DNA of 64,000 nt from Tumebacillus lacus. Lineage in GTDB: Bacteria; Bacillota; Bacilli; Tumebacillales; Tumebacillaceae. Position 1 is the stretch's first letter, and every line of letters begins with the position of its first letter. The stretch covers positions 248,001-312,000 of the forward strand of contig NZ_JAPMLT010000003.1 in NCBI RefSeq assembly GCF_026410385.1, read 5' to 3'. The translations under genes and the position numbers were made by a program. Of the stretch, positions 37,337-44,073 are shown piece by piece. The notes below the pieces were generated by a model. That model was given only the letters and a program-made list of their open reading frames with translations, made no database searches and was not told the origin of the DNA.

Positions 37337-37546
37337 TCCAATGCGGTATGTAAGCCCCGCGCGTGCCGTCGGACCCCGTGTTCCAGAACCCGCTCTCGCA
37401 GGTGGGTGACTCTTCGCCGTTTTTGACTTCCCAATCGTCTTGCAAGCAAGAGGTGGGCCTGTCAGCGACAGACGAGTTCCGTCTCCCTAGAAACACTCAA
37501 GGTTCAAAACATAAGAGCCCTAACGAGCACCGCAGGAAAGTTGCTT
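37337..37546 (-). ncRNA. ssrS: Probable 6S RNA
   Basis: A minus-strand stretch of about 210 nt between a TATAGA-like -10 and a strong terminator has no convincing reading frame but a long imperfect hairpin. The ends pair as CTTTCC-TGCGGT with ACCGCA-TT-GGAGAG, the closing stem of 6S RNA, and the 5' half contains GCGGTGCTCGTTAGGG and TTTTGAACC as in Gram-positive 6S RNAs I remember. 6S RNA mimics an open promoter and binds the SigA polymerase holoenzyme in stationary phase. The exact 5' end is estimated. Confidence 0.72.
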
Positions 37547-37559
37547 CTATAAGAACATT

Positions 37560-37950
37560 GTGCATAGGTTCGCTGCTTTCATATGTGCCGCGCTGCTTGG
37601 CTTGGCGTCTCGATTGCGTGTCGCTCTCGATGTCCTTATACTACTCTCTTCTCGAGTTCTCCTCAAGCCGCTGCGGAGAACACGCATTCACGGAATCGCG
37701 AGGATACGAGCGAGGAATGATACTGATGTCGCGCCAAGCAAGCGTTTGTCGGTCAGATTCACTTGCAACAGTCCTAGTTTGTCCTTTGGACAAGCTGGCT
37801 AAACCTGCCGATTTCATCGTCGTGGCGGTACGTCGTTTGGCAAACGAATAATATGACCATCGTCATATGGGGAAAATGACTTTCGACACTGTAATTTCAG
37901 CGATCCGACTGGTACGATAAGTCACGAGAGAAATGCCCAACATAGTTGAA
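37560..37950. other. Intergenic region without a recognised gene
   Basis: About 390 bp between the 6S RNA promoter and the terminator of the MFS gene. The base composition is less GC-rich than the neighbours and the open frames here lack ribosome sites and family motifs. It contains inverted repeats GTTCTCC/GGAGAAC (around 37655-37682) and TTGTCC-TTT-GGACAA (around 37776-37790). It could hold a remnant or an unrecognised small RNA; I see nothing more definite. Confidence 0.4.
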
Positions 37951-37951
37951 C

Positions 37952-37990
37952 GGAAAAAGTCCGGCTTCTACAGAGAAGCCGGACTTTTTT
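37952..37990 (-). terminator. Terminator of the RiPP-locus operon
   Basis: A 16-bp perfect stem AAAAAGTCCGGCTTCT/AGAAGCCGGACTTTTT with an ACAG loop spans the stop codon region of the MFS gene and ends the minus-strand operon. Confidence 0.92.
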
Positions 37991-39227
37991 CTTGTGCAGG
38001 GTCTGTGGCGGACGGGATGCGATACTGATCGCGCACCGACCGGTACCACGGTGAGAAAAAGGCGAGCAGCGCGGTCGCTCCGTAGCCGATCGACGCGTAG
38101 AGATACAGCGTGCGCGCCCCGAGTTGGTCGCCGAGCACACCGGCCGCCAGCATCGTCACCATCGACAGCGAGGTGACGAGCGAGCCGTACATGCCGGTCA
38201 CCCGCCCCATCAACTCGACCGGCGTGTTTTCCTGGCGCAAGGCTTGGTTCAGCGGATTGACAAACCCATTGAAAAACGCGCCTGCCGCGTAAAAGCACAG
38301 CGCGGTGATCAGATCGTCCGACAGGGCCAGACCTACCGAGGAGGCGCCAAACAGAAACAGCCCGGTCTGCATCAGATAGATCCGGTTGAACGAACGGTTC
38401 AATCGCGGCGAGACGAGCGAGCCGAGGATCGTGAAGATGCCAAACAAGGACACGGCCAGCCCGATCATCCGGCTGTCCGCTCCGAGTTCCCCTTGAAACA
38501 GCGGGTAAAACAGCACGTTGGTCGGCATCGCAAACATCATCACGAACGGAAACAGCGTCATCGAGAACAGCAGAGCCGGCGTCTTTTTGATATGCGCCGT
38601 GCCCTCCCGGAAATCGCGCCGCATTTTCTCCCGCAACGGTTCGCGCACGGTGGAACGCTCCAGCGGCGGGATGCGCACGCGCAACAGGAGCAGGCCGGAG
38701 ATCAGAAAGGTAAGGCCGTCGAGATAGAACGGCCACTCAAAGCCCAGCGCCGCGATGGCCGCGCCGGCGATGATCGGTCCGAGGATCGTGAACAGATTGT
38801 CGAGGCTTTGCACCAGCGAGCTGGCGGTGAGGAGTTGGTCGCGCTCCACCACCTGCACAGTCAGCCCGACCTTGGCCAGATCGAACAGCCGCCCCGTCGA
38901 GGCGATCACAAAGCAGAGCGCGTAGAGCAGCGGCATCGACGGCATCAGCGGGATCAGGACGGTCAGCACGAGCCGCACGATGTCGGTGATCACCATCAGG
39001 CGCTTGCGGTCGACCCGGTCGACATACAGGCCGAAAAACGGGGCGAACAAGATCGGCGGCAACCAGTAGGCGGCCATCATGAACGCCATCGACATCGCCG
39101 AACCGGTGCGCTCAAAGATCAGGAGCGGCAAGGCGATCCCGGTCAGCATGTCGCCGATCTTGGAAAACGACTGCGACGCGAGCAACGCCCGAAAATCCCG
39201 ATTTTTCAAAAGGGCGGCGTAACTCAT
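37968..39227 (-). CDS. MFS transporter of the radical SAM peptide locus
   Basis: This 419-residue protein has about twelve membrane helices and the MFS loop VDRVDRKRLMVI. It resembles the MFS_3-type drug exporters. The ATG at 39227 overlaps the stop of the solute-binding-like gene (ATGA), so both proteins are made together. As the last gene of the operon with the peptide precursors and the radical SAM enzyme it is the best candidate for exporting the mature peptide or giving immunity. The substrate is inferred from context only. A longer frame upstream lies within the neighbouring gene and is not used. Confidence 0.88.
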   Translation of the reverse strand: MSYAALLKNRDFRALLASQSFSKIGDMLTGIALPLLIFERTGSAMSMAFMMAAYWLPPILFAPFFGLYVDRVDRKRLMVITDIVRLVLTVLIPLMPSMPLLYALCFVIASTGRLFDLAKVGLTVQVVERDQLLTASSLVQSLDNLFTILGPIIAGAAIAALGFEWPFYLDGLTFLISGLLLLRVRIPPLERSTVREPLREKMRRDFREGTAHIKKTPALLFSMTLFPFVMMFAMPTNVLFYPLFQGELGADSRMIGLAVSLFGIFTILGSLVSPRLNRSFNRIYLMQTGLFLFGASSVGLALSDDLITALCFYAAGAFFNGFVNPLNQALRQENTPVELMGRVTGMYGSLVTSLSMVTMLAAGVLGDQLGARTLYLYASIGYGATALLAFFSPWYRSVRDQYRIPSATDPAQEKSPASL

Positions 39228-40690
39228 CGCTCCGTCTCCCCGTCCGGGAGCCGGATGCGCTGCCAGCGGATGCCAAGGTCCGGGTGCGGGTCGAGCCCGT
39301 GCACACCCTTCTGTTTGGCGATGATCGACAGGCCGCTGCGGGTAAAGATAAACGGCGAGTCCTCGACGATGATCTGCTGAGCCGCCCGATACAGCAGGAT
39401 GCGCGTGTCGCGGTCCGCTTCGACGCGGCACCGTTCGAGCACGGCGTCGAGTTCCGGATTGGCGTAGCTCATCCGGTTTTGGCTGCCCGCGGAGTGAAAG
39501 AGCGGATACAGCACCTCGTCCGGGTCGGTTCCGCCCGACGCGCCGAGAAAGAGCGCGTCATAGTCGCCGCTTTGCAAGGCGTCGTACAGATCGGACATCG
39601 GACGGACTTCGATCTTCATCTCGATTCCGCAGGCTCGCAGTTGATCGCCCATGTACGAGACCATTTTCCGCATCTGCTCGGTGGGGATCAGGATGGTGAA
39701 GGAATACCCGTCCGGGCAGCCCGCCTCCAAAAGCCGTGCCCGCACCTGCTCGCGGTCGCCTGTGAACGGGCGGTACTCGCCGTCATAAGCAAAGCTCGCG
39801 GGCGGGATCGGGCCGTGCATCGCATAGCCGACGCCGAGATTGACCTCGGCCAGCATCCGCTCGCGGTCGACGGCGGCGGCGAACGCTTGGCGCAGCGGTT
39901 TGCTGTCAAAAGGCGGCCGTGCGCAATTCAACCGCACGCCGTTGTAGCCGTGGGAGGCGATGGCGTCGAACGCCAGGTCCTGCCGCTCGCGAAGTTCCGG
40001 TACGCGCGCGTACGGCACTTCGTTGATCACCGTCAACTCCCCTTGCTCCAACGCCGCCAGCATCTGCGTCCCGTTTTCGTACCACGGCAGCTCAAGTCCC
40101 GCCGCATAGGGCAAGGCCGTGCCCGACTCATCGCGGCCCCAGTACCCGTCGTATCGCGCCAGTTGCACGGCAGACGGCGTTTTGGCGACGAAGCAGAACG
40201 GGCCGGTGCCGACCGGCACCGTCAGCGGTTCGCCCGCCCCCTCGTCCGGCACCACGATATTTCGCGTGGAAAAGATCATCCCGGCATTGGAGGCGAGGCT
40301 GGCGAGAAACGGCGCGTGCGGTTTGTGAAGGCGCACGCGGAAGGTCAGTTCGTCCACCGCTTCGACGTCCTCGACAAACGACAGCGCCGAACTCTGCGCC
40401 GAATCGTTGCCGCGCAACCGATTCAGACTCCAGACCGCATCGTGCGCGGTCAGCCGCACGCCGTCCTGAAACGAAACACCGGCTCTCAGGTGAAAACGGT
40501 ACGCCGTCGGCGATTCCTGTTCCCAACGCTCGGCGAGATGAGGTTGCACCTCCATCGCGCTGTCGACTTCCAGCAGCGTGTCGTACAGGGCCCGCATCAC
40601 GTGATACTCGGCAAAATTGACATCCGCCGTCGGATGGAACCGAAACGGCTCCGTGTCGAGGGCGAAGCGTATCCGATCGGAACTGCTCAT
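39224..40690 (-). CDS. Solute-binding protein (SBP family 5)-like, without signal peptide
   Basis: This 488-residue protein is a complete peptide/nickel-type substrate-binding protein (family 5) fold: FHPTADVNFAEYHVMRALYD, LAERWEQESPTAYRFHLRAG, VSFQDGVRLTAHDAVWSLNR and the C-terminal RMSYANPELDAVLERC. It starts MSSSDRIRFALDTEPF with no signal peptide or lipobox, so it should stay in the cytoplasm. It resembles the ligand-binding part of SgrR-type regulators but lacks their helix-turn-helix. AAAGGGTGA precedes the ATG at 40690. Its place between the precursor peptides and an MFS gene suggests it binds the peptide or a related oligopeptide inside the cell. No ABC permease or ATPase accompanies it. 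Confidence 0.82.
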   Translation of the reverse strand: MSSSDRIRFALDTEPFRFHPTADVNFAEYHVMRALYDTLLEVDSAMEVQPHLAERWEQESPTAYRFHLRAGVSFQDGVRLTAHDAVWSLNRLRGNDSAQSSALSFVEDVEAVDELTFRVRLHKPHAPFLASLASNAGMIFSTRNIVVPDEGAGEPLTVPVGTGPFCFVAKTPSAVQLARYDGYWGRDESGTALPYAAGLELPWYENGTQMLAALEQGELTVINEVPYARVPELRERQDLAFDAIASHGYNGVRLNCARPPFDSKPLRQAFAAAVDRERMLAEVNLGVGYAMHGPIPPASFAYDGEYRPFTGDREQVRARLLEAGCPDGYSFTILIPTEQMRKMVSYMGDQLRACGIEMKIEVRPMSDLYDALQSGDYDALFLGASGGTDPDEVLYPLFHSAGSQNRMSYANPELDAVLERCRVEADRDTRILLYRAAQQIIVEDSPFIFTRSGLSIIAKQKGVHGLDPHPDLGIRWQRIRLPDGETER

Positions 40691-40734
40691 GAGAAAATCA
40701 CCCTTTCGCGGTTCTGTGTATACCCGTATGTACA

Positions 40735-40765
40735 GGGAAAAACGCCCCTGCAGGACGTTTTTCCC
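40735..40765 (-). terminator. Stem-loop between precursor genes and downstream genes
   Basis: On the minus strand GGGAAAAACG-TCCTGCAGGGG-CGTTTTTCCC forms a 10-bp perfect stem with extra inner pairs. It lies between the last peptide gene and the solute-binding-like gene. It lacks a T tract after the stem, so it may act as a partial terminator or 3'-end stabiliser that keeps peptide mRNA in excess. Confidence 0.5.
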
Positions 40766-40812
40766 GGTGCTATGCATCACGCAGTCAAGGCCCTATGTAG
40801 GCCGTGCTGTGA

Positions 40813-40881
40813 TTAGCAGTTGCAGTTGTTGTTGTTGCCGGTCGCTTTGCGCTCTTGCGTTGCTTTGACGATCCATTTCAT
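40813..40881 (-). CDS. Putative RiPP precursor peptide, copy 3
   Basis: A 22-residue peptide: a leader-like MKWIVKATQERKATG followed by NNNNCNC and a stop. It differs from the other copies by Thr8 in place of Ala8. A near-perfect ribosome site (AAAAGGAGGTGAGC) lies seven bases before the ATG, showing that it is a real gene despite its size. It is last in the array before the stem-loop. The N/C-rich end is the likely target of the radical SAM enzyme encoded upstream. Confidence 0.8.
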   Translation of the reverse strand: MKWIVKATQERKATGNNNNCNC

Positions 40882-40920
40882 CCCCGCTCACCTCCTTTTA
40901 CGAATCGAACGAAGCGTGGA

Positions 40921-40992
40921 TCAACCGCAGTTGCAGTTGTTGTTGTTACCGGTCGCTTTGCGCTCTTGCGCTGCTTTGACGATCCATTTCAT
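40921..40992 (-). CDS. Putative RiPP precursor peptide, copy 2
   Basis: A 23-residue peptide: MKWIVKAAQERKATG, then NNNNCNC and one extra terminal Gly before the TGA. The ribosome site GAAGGAGGTGAGC is as strong as in the other copies. The codons are almost identical to those of copies 1 and 3 (one Gly codon differs), so the duplications are recent or kept uniform by gene conversion. Confidence 0.8.
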   Translation of the reverse strand: MKWIVKAAQERKATGNNNNCNCG

Positions 40993-41032
40993 CCCCGCTC
41001 ACCTCCTTCGTTTCGTTCACCGGGCAACCCGA

Positions 41033-41101
41033 TTAGCAGTTGCAGTTGTTGTTGTTGCCGGTCGCTTTGCGCTCTTGCGCTGCTTTGACGATCCATTTCA
41101 T
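41033..41101 (-). CDS. Putative RiPP precursor peptide, copy 1
   Basis: A 22-residue peptide: MKWIVKAAQERKATG followed by NNNNCNC. It starts 32 bp after the radical SAM gene with the ribosome site AAAGGAGGTGATC. The MK-x-IVK start recalls the tandem short cysteine-containing precursors of the Clostridium CLI_3235/Clo7bot type, which also travel with a radical SAM/SPASM enzyme; that comparison is from memory. Export leader features such as a double-glycine cleavage site are absent. Confidence 0.8.
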   Translation of the reverse strand: MKWIVKAAQERKATGNNNNCNC

Positions 41102-41133
41102 GCGAGATCACCTCCTTTCAAGGCATCGGAATG

Positions 41134-42453
41134 TCAGGATGTCAGGACGTCGAGCGCGTATTTCATATGCGTTTTCGTCGGCGGGCAAGGCTGGATGCCG
41201 TTTTGAATCCGCTCCAGCGGGCAGGCCGCGCCTTGACAAGACGGGCGGAAGAAACATTTCTGACACCCGCTGTCGACCGTCTCGTTCGCCTCCACCCAGA
41301 GGTTGAACCGCTCCTCGTTCAGGTTCAGGTTGCCGGTCTCGTCGAGCTGCCCGACGTGATTTTCCGCCAGGTCCAGTGCGACTGTGCATTTGCGGACAAG
41401 CCCGTTGGCCCCGATGACAAAGTGGAACGGCAACGCTGCGTAGCAGACGTGGGAGTGCGGCGCGATGATGTTCTCGATCACCGCCAGTGACAGCCCTTTG
41501 TCTTTCGCTTTCTTGTGCAAGGAGAACATCTCTTTGATGCCTTGCGAGCCGTCGCACACCTCCAGCGACTCATCGTTCGGTCCGCCCCATTTGCCGATGT
41601 TGCGGTAGTAGACCGGGAAGCGCGGGTCGCCGTCAAACACGTCGAGCAGATAGTCCATCAGGCGCGGCACTTCGTCGAGCGAGTTTTTGTCAAAATTAGT
41701 GCGCAGTTGGCAGTGATACTCGTAGTCGGTCTCCTTCATCGCCTTTAAATTGGAGAGGATCGTCTCGAACGTCGCTCCGCCGCCTTTTTTGATTCGACGC
41801 TTGTCGTGCTCTTCGCCGCAGCCGTCCAGCGTGATGTTGTAGGAGGTGATGCGGCAGTCGTCAACCAGCTTTTTGAACAGGTCCGGCTTGAGGTTGTAGC
41901 CGTTTGTCGTCATCGCCGAGGAGTATTGGATGCCGTACTTTTCGCAAAGTTCCAAAAAGTATGCCGACAGCTCCAAGATCACATCCGGCGCCTCGGTCGG
42001 TTCGCCGCCAAACCAGGAGATGTTCAGGTATTTGATGTGCGGCGCGCGCTCGGCGACCAAATTTTTGATCCCCTCGCGAATCTCCGGCTTCATCTCTTTG
42101 ACCGCGAAGTCCTCGTAACAGTACACGCAGCGGAAGTTGCATTCCTCCGTCGGCATGATCGTCAGCTCAAACAGGTCATCGCGCTCGAACAGCTCGCGGT
42201 GCAGATCGTCCGCTTTGGCAAACTCATCTTCCTCCGCCGCCACCAGCAGCCCGCCTTCTTTGAGATCGGCGAGGATGCCGTCCAACTCCGTGAGCACCGC
42301 TTGCGGCTTCAGCGCCGCTTCGACTGTCGCCTGATCCTCTTCCGGCACCACGCCCACGACGCCGGTGTAGGAGTTGTAGACGACGAGATCGCCGTTTTCA
42401 TTGCGCGTCTTAAAGTTAAAACGAGAAGGCTTATAGTGGGCAGAATCTGCCAT
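41134..42453 (-). CDS. Radical SAM/SPASM peptide maturase
   Basis: This 439-residue enzyme has an N-terminal domain (about residues 1-90, with FNFKTRNENGDLVVYNSYTG) of the kind that binds precursor peptides, the radical SAM core with CNFRCVYCYED (Cys105, Cys109, Cys112 hold the SAM-binding 4Fe-4S cluster) and WFGGEPT, and a C-terminal SPASM region with many cysteines (HSHVCYAALPF, RKCTVALDL, DSGCQKCFFRPSC, GAACPLERI, PCPP) for auxiliary clusters. Relatives install thioether or other crosslinks in ribosomal peptides. It precedes the three precursor genes on one transcript. I chose the ATG at 42453 (GGGGGAGA upstream); an in-frame upstream start is less likely. Confidence 0.9.
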   Translation of the reverse strand: MADSAHYKPSRFNFKTRNENGDLVVYNSYTGVVGVVPEEDQATVEAALKPQAVLTELDGILADLKEGGLLVAAEEDEFAKADDLHRELFERDDLFELTIMPTEECNFRCVYCYEDFAVKEMKPEIREGIKNLVAERAPHIKYLNISWFGGEPTEAPDVILELSAYFLELCEKYGIQYSSAMTTNGYNLKPDLFKKLVDDCRITSYNITLDGCGEEHDKRRIKKGGGATFETILSNLKAMKETDYEYHCQLRTNFDKNSLDEVPRLMDYLLDVFDGDPRFPVYYRNIGKWGGPNDESLEVCDGSQGIKEMFSLHKKAKDKGLSLAVIENIIAPHSHVCYAALPFHFVIGANGLVRKCTVALDLAENHVGQLDETGNLNLNEERFNLWVEANETVDSGCQKCFFRPSCQGAACPLERIQNGIQPCPPTKTHMKYALDVLTS

Positions 42454-42527
42454 TTGATCTCCCCCATTCCATTCATCCAACACTTTGTAAGGATTTATTT
42501 TGTAAATACCCTTCACTCACACTCTCA

Positions 42528-42557
42528 GTATATTGACCCCTTTGTAAATCATTCCAA
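42528..42557 (-). promoter_or_regulatory. Candidate promoter of the radical SAM peptide operon
   Basis: On the minus strand TTGGAA (42552-42557), an 18-nt spacer and TATACT (42528-42533) lie about 75 nt before the ATG at 42453. Three direct repeats of TTTGTAA (plus strand, around 42484, 42499 and 42541) surround it and may bind a regulator. Confidence 0.45.
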
Positions 42558-42603
42558 ATCATACATGAAATAATTTGAAGAGCCTGTACATTATTTATCA
42601 GAA

Positions 42604-42638
42604 AATAAAGAAAACCGTCCTGCACGAGAAGGACGGTC
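42604..42638 (-). terminator. Terminator of the suf operon
   Basis: On the minus strand ACCGTCC/GGACGGT with a 10-nt loop is followed by TTTTCTTTATTTT, right at the sufB stop. Confidence 0.85.
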
Positions 42639-44073
42639 AGCCGATGGAGCCTTTCATTTCAAATTTGATCAAGCGGTTCATCTCGACGGCGTACTCCATC
42701 GGCAGCTCGCGGGTAAACGGTTCGAGAAAGCCCATCACGATCAGTTGGGTGGCGTCTTCTTCGCTGAGACCGCGGCTCATCAGGTAGAAGAGCTGGTCCT
42801 CCGACACTTTCGAGACGCTGGCTTCGTGCTCCAGCGTCACGTCATCGGTGCGGATCTTGTTGACCGGGATCGTGTCGGCAACCGATGCGTCGTCGAAGAT
42901 CAACGTGTCGCATTTGATGCTCGCTTTTGATCCTGCCGCTTTGGGGCCGAATTCACAGAGACCGCGGTACGTGGTTTTGCCGCCCTGTTTGGAGATCGAT
43001 TTGGAAAGCACCGTCGAGGTGCAGCCCGGCGCGAGGTGGACGACTTTTGCTCCGGCGTCTTGATGCTGGCCGCTGCCTGCGACGGCGATGGAGAGGATCG
43101 TCCCTTTGGCGCGGGGGCCGGTCATATAGACGGCAGGGTATTTCATCGTCAGTTTGGAGCCGATGTTGCCGTCGACCCACTCCATCGTCGCGTCGGTGCG
43201 GGCGACGGCTCGTTTCGTGACGAGGTTGTAGATGTTCGGCGCCCAGTTTTGGATCGTCGTGTAGCGGCAACGGGCCCGGTCCTTGACGAGGATCTCGACG
43301 ACCGCCGCGTGCAGGGAGTCGGTGGAGTAGATCGGTGCGGTGCAGCCCTCTACATAATGCACGAAACTGTCCTCTTCGGCGATGATCAGCGTGCGCTCAA
43401 ACTGGCCCATGTTTTCCGAGTTGATCCGAAAATACGCCTGCAACGGCACCTCGCAGCGGACGCCTTTTGGCACATAGACGAACGAGCCGCCCGACCAGAC
43501 GGCGGAGTTGAGCGCGGCAAATTTGTTGTCGACAGGCGGGATGACGGTGCCGAAGTATTTTTTAAAAATCTCCGGGTGATCGCGCAAGGCGGAGTCGGTG
43601 TCGGTAAAGAGGACACCTTGATCGGCCAGCTCTTTTTGCATCGAATGGTAGACGACTTCCGACTCGTACTGGGCGGAGACCCCGGCGAGAAATTTGCGCT
43701 CCGCCTCCGGGATGCCAAGCTTTTCAAACGTGTCTTTGATCTCTTCGGGCACCTCTTCCCACGTCTTACCTTGCCCTTCGGACGGTTTGACATAATAGGT
43801 AATATTGTCAAAGTCGAGGCCGGTGAGATCGCCGCCCCACTGCGGCATCGGCATCTTTTCAAACAGCTCCAGGGCACGAAGGCGAAAATCGGTCATCCAC
43901 CCTGGCTCGTTTTTCATGGCGGAGATCGCTTCGACCGTTTTGCGGGTCAGACCTTTCTGGAATTTGACGACCGAGATGTCGCGGTCGCGAAATCCGTATC
44001 GGTACTCAGGCAGGTCGAGACGTTGTTTTTTGTCTTTGTCGTTGTGTTTGTCGTTGTCGTGTTCACGGCTCAT
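42637..44073 (-). CDS. sufB: Fe-S cluster assembly scaffold protein SufB
   Basis: SufB with SufC and SufD builds Fe-S clusters. The 478-residue protein has the family core ([68 protein letters not shown] with the cluster-binding Cys) and the C-terminal [20 protein letters not shown]. The N-terminus ([18 protein letters not shown]) is unusually rich in Asp, Lys and His. It overlaps sufU by 11 bp and is the last gene of sufC-D-S-U-B. Confidence 0.96.

Follow-up and report, generated by a model that had tools for sequence, protein, structure and literature searches.

A conserved RiPP system of a radical SAM/SPASM maturase and short peptides ending in N-C-N-C in Tumebacillus lacus

The window, that is, the whole 64,000-nucleotide stretch of the Tumebacillus lacus genome analysed here, carries a radical SAM/SPASM maturase gene followed by three tiny peptide genes within 40813-41101 (Table 1), which confirms the arrangement given in an earlier sequence-only reading. 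Together they are a real, conserved RiPP system, named by no NCBIfam model among the best 25 of 65 matches. This NCNC system is a small offshoot of a known type of modified peptide, and its maturase probably ties Cys to a nearby Asn. We consider it likely, though by no means certain, that the product is a RiPP of the ranthipeptide type in which thioethers join Asn(i) to Cys(i+3), probably two overlapping ones (N17-C20 and N19-C22), and that it is exported by the MFS protein.

Table 1. Features of the NCNC locus (positions in the window)
Feature	Position	Strand	Evidence or remark
Radical SAM/SPASM peptide maturase, 439 aa	41134-42453	-	Pfam Radical_SAM 1.4e-16
Precursor peptide 1, MKWIVKAAQERKATGNNNNCNC	41033-41101	-	Start 32 bases past maturase stop codon
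Precursor peptide 2, MKWIVKAAQERKATGNNNNCNCG (peptide 1 with C-terminal Gly)	40921-40992	-	
Precursor peptide 3, MKWIVKATQERKATGNNNNCNC (A8T relative to peptide 1)	40813-40881	-	
14-pair hairpin beyond last peptide gene, resembling a terminator or attenuator; 3' arm contains U run	40735-40765	-	
SBP_bac_5 solute/peptide-binding protein (SBP)	39224-40690	-	Pfam SBP_bac_5 1.2e-69
MFS transporter, overlapping SBP stop	37968-39230	-	Pfam MFS_1 5.5e-44, MFS_3 4.7e-20
Terminator-like site between SUF genes and maturase	42613-42638	-	Terminator scan

The three peptides are MKWIVKA[AT]QERKATGNNNNCNC, 22-23 residues in length and ending with NNNNCNC(G), the second having one extra Gly. An 8-base exact match to the Shine-Dalgarno sequence, the longest length tested, precedes all three genes, in agreement with the excellent ribosome sites claimed earlier. 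A whole-genome search with the peptide (E up to 10; genome approximately 96% complete) found these three places only. The DNA of the three genes differs at 1-5 of 69 bases (93-99% identity), and over the 16 bases just ahead of the start codon, copies 2 and 3 are identical with no or few exceptions. Therefore, the three genes are recent or homogenised duplicates. The peptides had been described as near-identical with differing spacers; the near-identity stands, but the description overstates selection in view of these DNA differences. What truly shows these frames to be genes is conservation between species, rather than likeness inside the array.

Such conservation is observed. When public genomes were scanned with the window maturase, nine loci were obtained, and maturase relatives are present in six of the seven genomes of the host's family that were searched, the window's own counted. 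At locus L063 (genome G403), the maturase (69% identity to that of the window) is followed by two peptides, MKLVKKA[MI]KRREAVANTNCNC, the SBP and the MFS protein. At L064 (G400), the maturase (63% identity) is followed by the SBP, the MFS protein and three peptides, MKW[IV]VKAERQSKVSSNNNNCNC. Conservation of the peptide frames beside orthologous maturases had been set beforehand as a test, which the system passes: these relatives carry two or three tandem, diverged peptides. In T. avium (L067) the order is maturase, MKFVKKANQAVRKINAGNNCNC and MFS; in Bacillus V3-13 (L005), MKMIQKPLEDTLSEMSSRALNNCNCIK and an apparent decayed precursor copy precede the maturase and the MFS gene. In T. avium and Bacillus, no SBP homologue was found in the ~13 kb surrounding the cluster; therefore, the SBP is regarded as accessory. 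The maturases of the window, L063, L064 and L005 group together in a clade with support of 99/94, NCNC peptides occur at 4/4 of its loci, and such a peptide also lies beside the T. avium maturase. The earlier view of an uncharacterised radical SAM/SPASM RiPP is borne out by these loci.

The core common to all NCNC peptides is N-C-N-C. This part of the Asn4-Cys-Asn-Cys core proposed earlier holds for the relatives, but the four-Asn run is found in the window and L064 only. One orthologous cluster carries NTNCNC, and T. avium and Bacillus carry NNCNC versions. Through the natural variants NNNNCNC, NTNCNC, AGNNCNC and LNNCNCIK, the role of each Cys can be distinguished. In the window (N17/C20, N19/C22), L063 and L064 peptides, Asn is at -3 of both Cys, which is the N-x-x-C core of an NxxC RaS-RiPP; in the T. 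avium and Bacillus peptides, it is at -3 of the second Cys only. It should be mentioned that the T. avium MFS gene is split across two frames (L067:7289-8554), by mutation or sequencing error. The apparently decayed copy in Bacillus (L005:5830-5895) contains a second NNCNC stretch, ends with LNNCNCTTI and has no start.

From these observed genes, their linkage and conservation, the motif and the enzyme architecture, we infer the leader role, the type and positions of the bonds, the export, the function of the SBP and the biological role. The N-terminal M-K-x-[IV]-x-K-[PA] stretch would be a recognition leader that the maturase might bind with its N-terminal domain, and the C-terminal N-C-N-C would be the core of the 22-23-residue precursor. 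The radical SAM/SPASM enzyme would take hydrogen from an Asn side chain, and the side-chain carbon would be bonded to the Cys sulfur three positions on, giving a non-alpha thioether as in NxxcA. Since Asn is at -3 of both Cys in the window, L063 and L064, two overlapping beta-thioethers are the leading prediction; in the window peptides the links N17-C20 and N19-C22 would lower the mass by 4 Da. In T. avium and Bacillus, either one ring might be formed or the first Cys might have another partner. The MFS protein would export the product, as its linkage suggests. The apparently cytoplasmic SBP, found in some clusters only, would be accessory and may present the peptide to the MFS protein. A more elaborate picture is doubtful: an unnamed maturase clade in several phyla would act on varied C-terminal cores, and in its Tumebacillus branch N17-C20, crossed with N19-C22, would be interlocked within six residues at the end of an exceptionally short precursor, a knot that the cytoplasmic peptide-binding protein would hand to the MFS exporter.

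The spacing was analysed over a wider clade. In a tree of 45 maturases with a midpoint root and open forks at L067, L065, L071, L072 and L102, the window maturase falls in a 34-row group, which is split (100/100) from 11 rows including the Clo7bot and TIGR04463 enzymes. The filter of a first precursor hunt included Asn motifs; the statistics rest mainly on a second, Asn-blind one, which took a Shine-Dalgarno match of at least 5 bases, at least two Cys in the last 20 residues and a start within about 1.3 kb of the maturase. On the sense strand it picked 25 candidates, from 20 of 36 loci, and on the antisense strand three, from 3 of 36. Examples beside wider relatives are LTNGVCTGNGKCGQ, TNVKCDTNYVCI, LNYNCDCK, TNYGCNSPCTLP and DNENCNNCWC. 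The L064 peptides, which lie beyond the 1.3 kb limit, were added to the set of distinct peptides, and L077 was used only through its search locus L015; L011, L069 and extra tandem copies were omitted from this set as near-duplicates. A precursor was identified at none of L007 (contig end), L070, L109 and L110, and the annotated small frames after the L109 and L110 maturases were inspected and are not of the Cys-precursor kind. L102 and L105 have Cys peptides that fail the picker and were left uncounted, the former without N..C and the latter with one.

In these peptides the spacing of Cys relative to Asn is specific and non-random. Cys positions were fixed and the other residues of the last 15 were permuted. 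Among all picks with near-duplicates removed, Asn is at Cys-3 for 21 of 40 Cys (shuffled mean 7.2; 0/5000 shuffles); one window copy enters this set twice, its extra Gly shifting the register. The curated count is 21/34, after removal of the second frame of L072, the first frame of L107 and the frames of L095, L098 and L100, which lie about 0.9 kb downstream. A single row for the window clade gives 17/30 (mean 5.9; 0/10000), and addition of L066, which was found under a looser rule, gives 18/31 (0/5000). The enrichment persists without the five NCNC peptides (13/24; mean 3.9; 0/10000). N..C is present in 13 of 16 distinct peptides, while L010, L072 and L107 have N...C instead, and the single Cys of L066 sits in N-V-I-C. 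Enrichment at Cys-4 is weaker (14/40; 41/5000). The control residues Ser/Thr/Gly and Asp/Glu have no peak at -3, the former being slightly high at -6 (214/5000). A precedent is NxxcB, of an NxxC RaS-RiPP from Streptococcus orisratti, for which the Cys23 sulfur is described as joined to the beta carbon of Asn20 (PMC8326336, PMC13361665). The enrichment at Cys-3 and this precedent lend specific support to the earlier suggestion of Cys-to-Asn thioethers, the bond itself being predicted. The wider set thus extends the streptococcal N-x-x-C example to a predicted motif across a maturase clade.

Asn is enriched also at Cys-1 (19/40; 0/5000 among all picks), and it occupies this position for both Cys of all five NCNC peptides. 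The stretch common to Tumebacillus through Bacillus is N-C-N-C only, without Asn at -3 of the first Cys, and PapB is described as taking Cys-Xn-Asp with n = 0-6, so that the spacing need not be strict (PMC9413430). These points would suit a maturation with another link: Cys might be tied to its neighbouring Asn (-1) or, as in a sactipeptide, to an alpha carbon, or only one of the two Cys might form a ring while the other stays free. However, without the five NCNC peptides the enrichment at -1 is weakened to 9/24 (404/10000), whereas that at -3 persists, and we regard such a link as unlikely.

The architecture of the maturase is as expected for a ranthipeptide enzyme. CxxxCxxC at 105/109/112 and all seven C-terminal SPASM-type cysteines (337, 356, 397, 400, 406, 411 and 423) are invariant in 15/15 aligned maturases, and the linked Cys-containing precursor, present in three copies, is kept in the orthologous clusters. 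With the AF2 model (pLDDT 87.3), the best PDB match by Foldseek is 5wgg/5why, titled thioether bond formation; 5wgg was also the sole match in a PDB sequence search with E up to 0.001 (5.7e-11 over residues 96-260). In VIA-align, 5why/5wgg gave Z values of 26.2/25.5 over 389/400 residues (rmsd 4.8/4.5), starting at residue 9 or 10. anSME (Z 25.6 over 330 residues, beginning at about 93) and ChlB (Z 25.0 over 333 residues) are tied with them in Z, yet with less coverage, and TigE (8vpo) is next at Z 23.1 over 386 residues. We take 5wgg/5why to be CteB, a SCIFF-type maturase whose N-terminal domain binds leader peptides. A shared fold leaves the reaction unfixed.

Close relatives of the enzyme have a different partner. 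The sister maturases form 10 rows in the 45-maturase tree (support 100/99). At L092-L101 and L103, from seven Bacilli families, the maturases share about 39-45% identity with that of the window. A Cys-free peptide of 27-29 residues lies downstream of the maturase at 11/11 loci examined, including L103, where the maturase gene is interrupted; examples are MRILRPAISPATASNTGKLIKSVPGNLK and L096:6229-6315. These peptides start mostly with MK-x-[IVL]-R-P-A-x-x-P and always end with K[SA]VPG[NS]L[KS], and the two that were scanned have no NCBIfam match. This means that enzymes of this clade may act without Cys. Therefore, membership in the enzyme clade is by itself no sign of thioethers; the predicted thioether has its basis in the peptide motif and the precedent, not in the enzyme, and the Cys-free sister group serves as a contrast. 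A maturation without thioether, in which Asn or another residue is changed (ether, C-C link or desaturation) and the Cys pair binds a metal or forms a disulfide, would agree with these sister peptides and with the structural neighbour TigE, which performs non-thioether chemistry. The Asn-relative spacing of Cys, being specific and non-random, argues against it, and we consider it improbable.

The core motif by itself does not find the system. The DNA pattern NNCNC + stop has matches in 23 of 398 Bacilli genomes, and outside G000, G400 and G402 a maturase is near such a frame at 0/22 loci (24 places; 2.5-3 kb each, about 1.5 kb around), where the frames look like chance occurrences. That the window frames likewise are not genes, for instance an (AAC)n simple repeat spread by tandem duplication, is very improbable: the Asn run is indeed encoded as an AAC repeat in three nearly identical copies, but peptides that have diverged yet keep the N-terminal pattern and the NCNC end, NTNCNC in one case, adjoin orthologous maturases, and strong Shine-Dalgarno sites precede all three frames.

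Assignment to TIGR04463, Clo7bot, PapB, SCIFF, CcpM or CefB was rejected, because the best 25 of 65 NCBIfam matches were all under the curated cut-offs. TIGR04463, a family of rSAM/SPASM RiPP maturases, is the best match of the window maturase, at 208.4 bits over residues 14-414, far under the cut-off of 525; a TIGR04463-annotated Methylomagnum enzyme, beside a CefA-type peptide, lies outside the window's clade. For SCIFF (TIGR03974) the score is 57.5 bits against 425, and the SCIFF precursor has six Cys in about 45 residues, whereas the window peptides have two in 22-23. For PapB (NF047865) it is 97.9 bits against 340. PapB, a ranthipeptide maturase, is described as a radical SAM enzyme forming thioethers from Cys to Asp or Glu, nested ones included (PMC9413430); its polarity is CX3D, with Cys before the acceptor, whereas here Asn precedes Cys.

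The likeness to Clo7bot (TIGR04333/TIGR04334) noticed earlier is in part upheld. Precursors at L112 have the MKxI-K-P type of start and stand in tandem beside a related maturase, and a loose N-terminal pattern fits 5/6 of the Clo7bot starts from L112, all five NCNC peptides and 7/16 peptides overall. However, the window maturase scores 156.7 bits against a cut-off of 600 and belongs to a separate clade (100/100), and the Clo7bot cores have many Cys, with Asn at Cys+3 instead of Cys-3 at L112. The NCBIfam models gave no match to the precursors scanned, those of the window among them, save the Clo7bot control, which scored 39.1 bits in the same library (cut-off 31 bits); HMMER may miss such short peptides as those of the window. 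At L112:2481-4384, on a Paraclostridium plasmid, Asn is at Cys+3 in 7/9 Clo7bot-type precursors (12/45; 13/5000 shuffles), a polarity opposite to that of the window's family.

The likeness to NxxcA/NxxcB, drawn from the published description, consists of Cys with Asn at -3 and a radical SAM maturase. Unlike NxxcA, the NCNC precursors have 21-27 residues and carry their two Cys at the C-terminus or close to it. On the NCNC side, three clusters hold the precursor gene in tandem copies, and besides the MFS gene there is an SBP gene in three clusters. The hosts are Tumebacillus-like bacteria and a Bacillus, in contrast to the streptococcal NxxC. Among the open-access papers searched, none was found on TIGR04463 or Clo7bot, nor on ranthipeptides with asparagine; NNCNC brought unrelated papers only, and radical SAM RiPPs of Tumebacillus a lanthipeptide paper only. 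The sections of PMC9062424 considered here list new rSAM pathways, an Asp-Cys motif among them, and the NCNC system was not found in these sections. The NCNC family is probably larger than catalogued, because 22-codon genes are easily overlooked in annotation. With 22 residues and one enzyme, the system offers a minimal, ready-made substrate to probe the placement of Asn-Cys thioethers by radical SAM enzymes.

Several features flank these genes. The hairpin region 40725-40812 folds with a z of -4.0 relative to shuffles, 0/200 being equally stable; the hairpin was absent from the output of a simple terminator scan. That scan gave four sites in the whole window against 3.2 expected by chance, so the site behind the SUF genes is weak taken singly; given this site, the maturase may have its own promoter. 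No Rfam family reached its gathering score in 37500-44000, and none of the genes in the cluster was recognised as coding for a peptidase or for immunity. The MFS protein scores 244.5 bits against TIGR00900, under the cut-off of 319.6. By eye and with start sites assumed, no signal peptide or lipobox is visible in the window SBP, nor a signal peptide in its L063 and L064 orthologues. An apparently cytoplasmic family 5 SBP, kept in three clusters and overlapping the MFS gene, is an unusual partner for an exporter.

Other loci with related maturases have additional genes. On a Deinococcus plasmid (L109), the related maturase adjoins genes for an LLM-class oxidoreductase and a lantibiotic dehydratase. 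At L066:1554-7459, a maturase relative is clustered with two TldD/PmbA-like genes, a gene that is MFS-like by BLAST only, and a PF02441 flavoprotein (CoaC-like) of the LanD family; the sole Cys of the peptide at this locus is the C-terminal residue (..TNNNVIC). A flavoprotein also occurs at L065, where the peptide ends with NGNCHIC, and L070 resembles L066 by eye. These three loci suggest that a radical SAM thioether is joined with decarboxylation of the C-terminal Cys.
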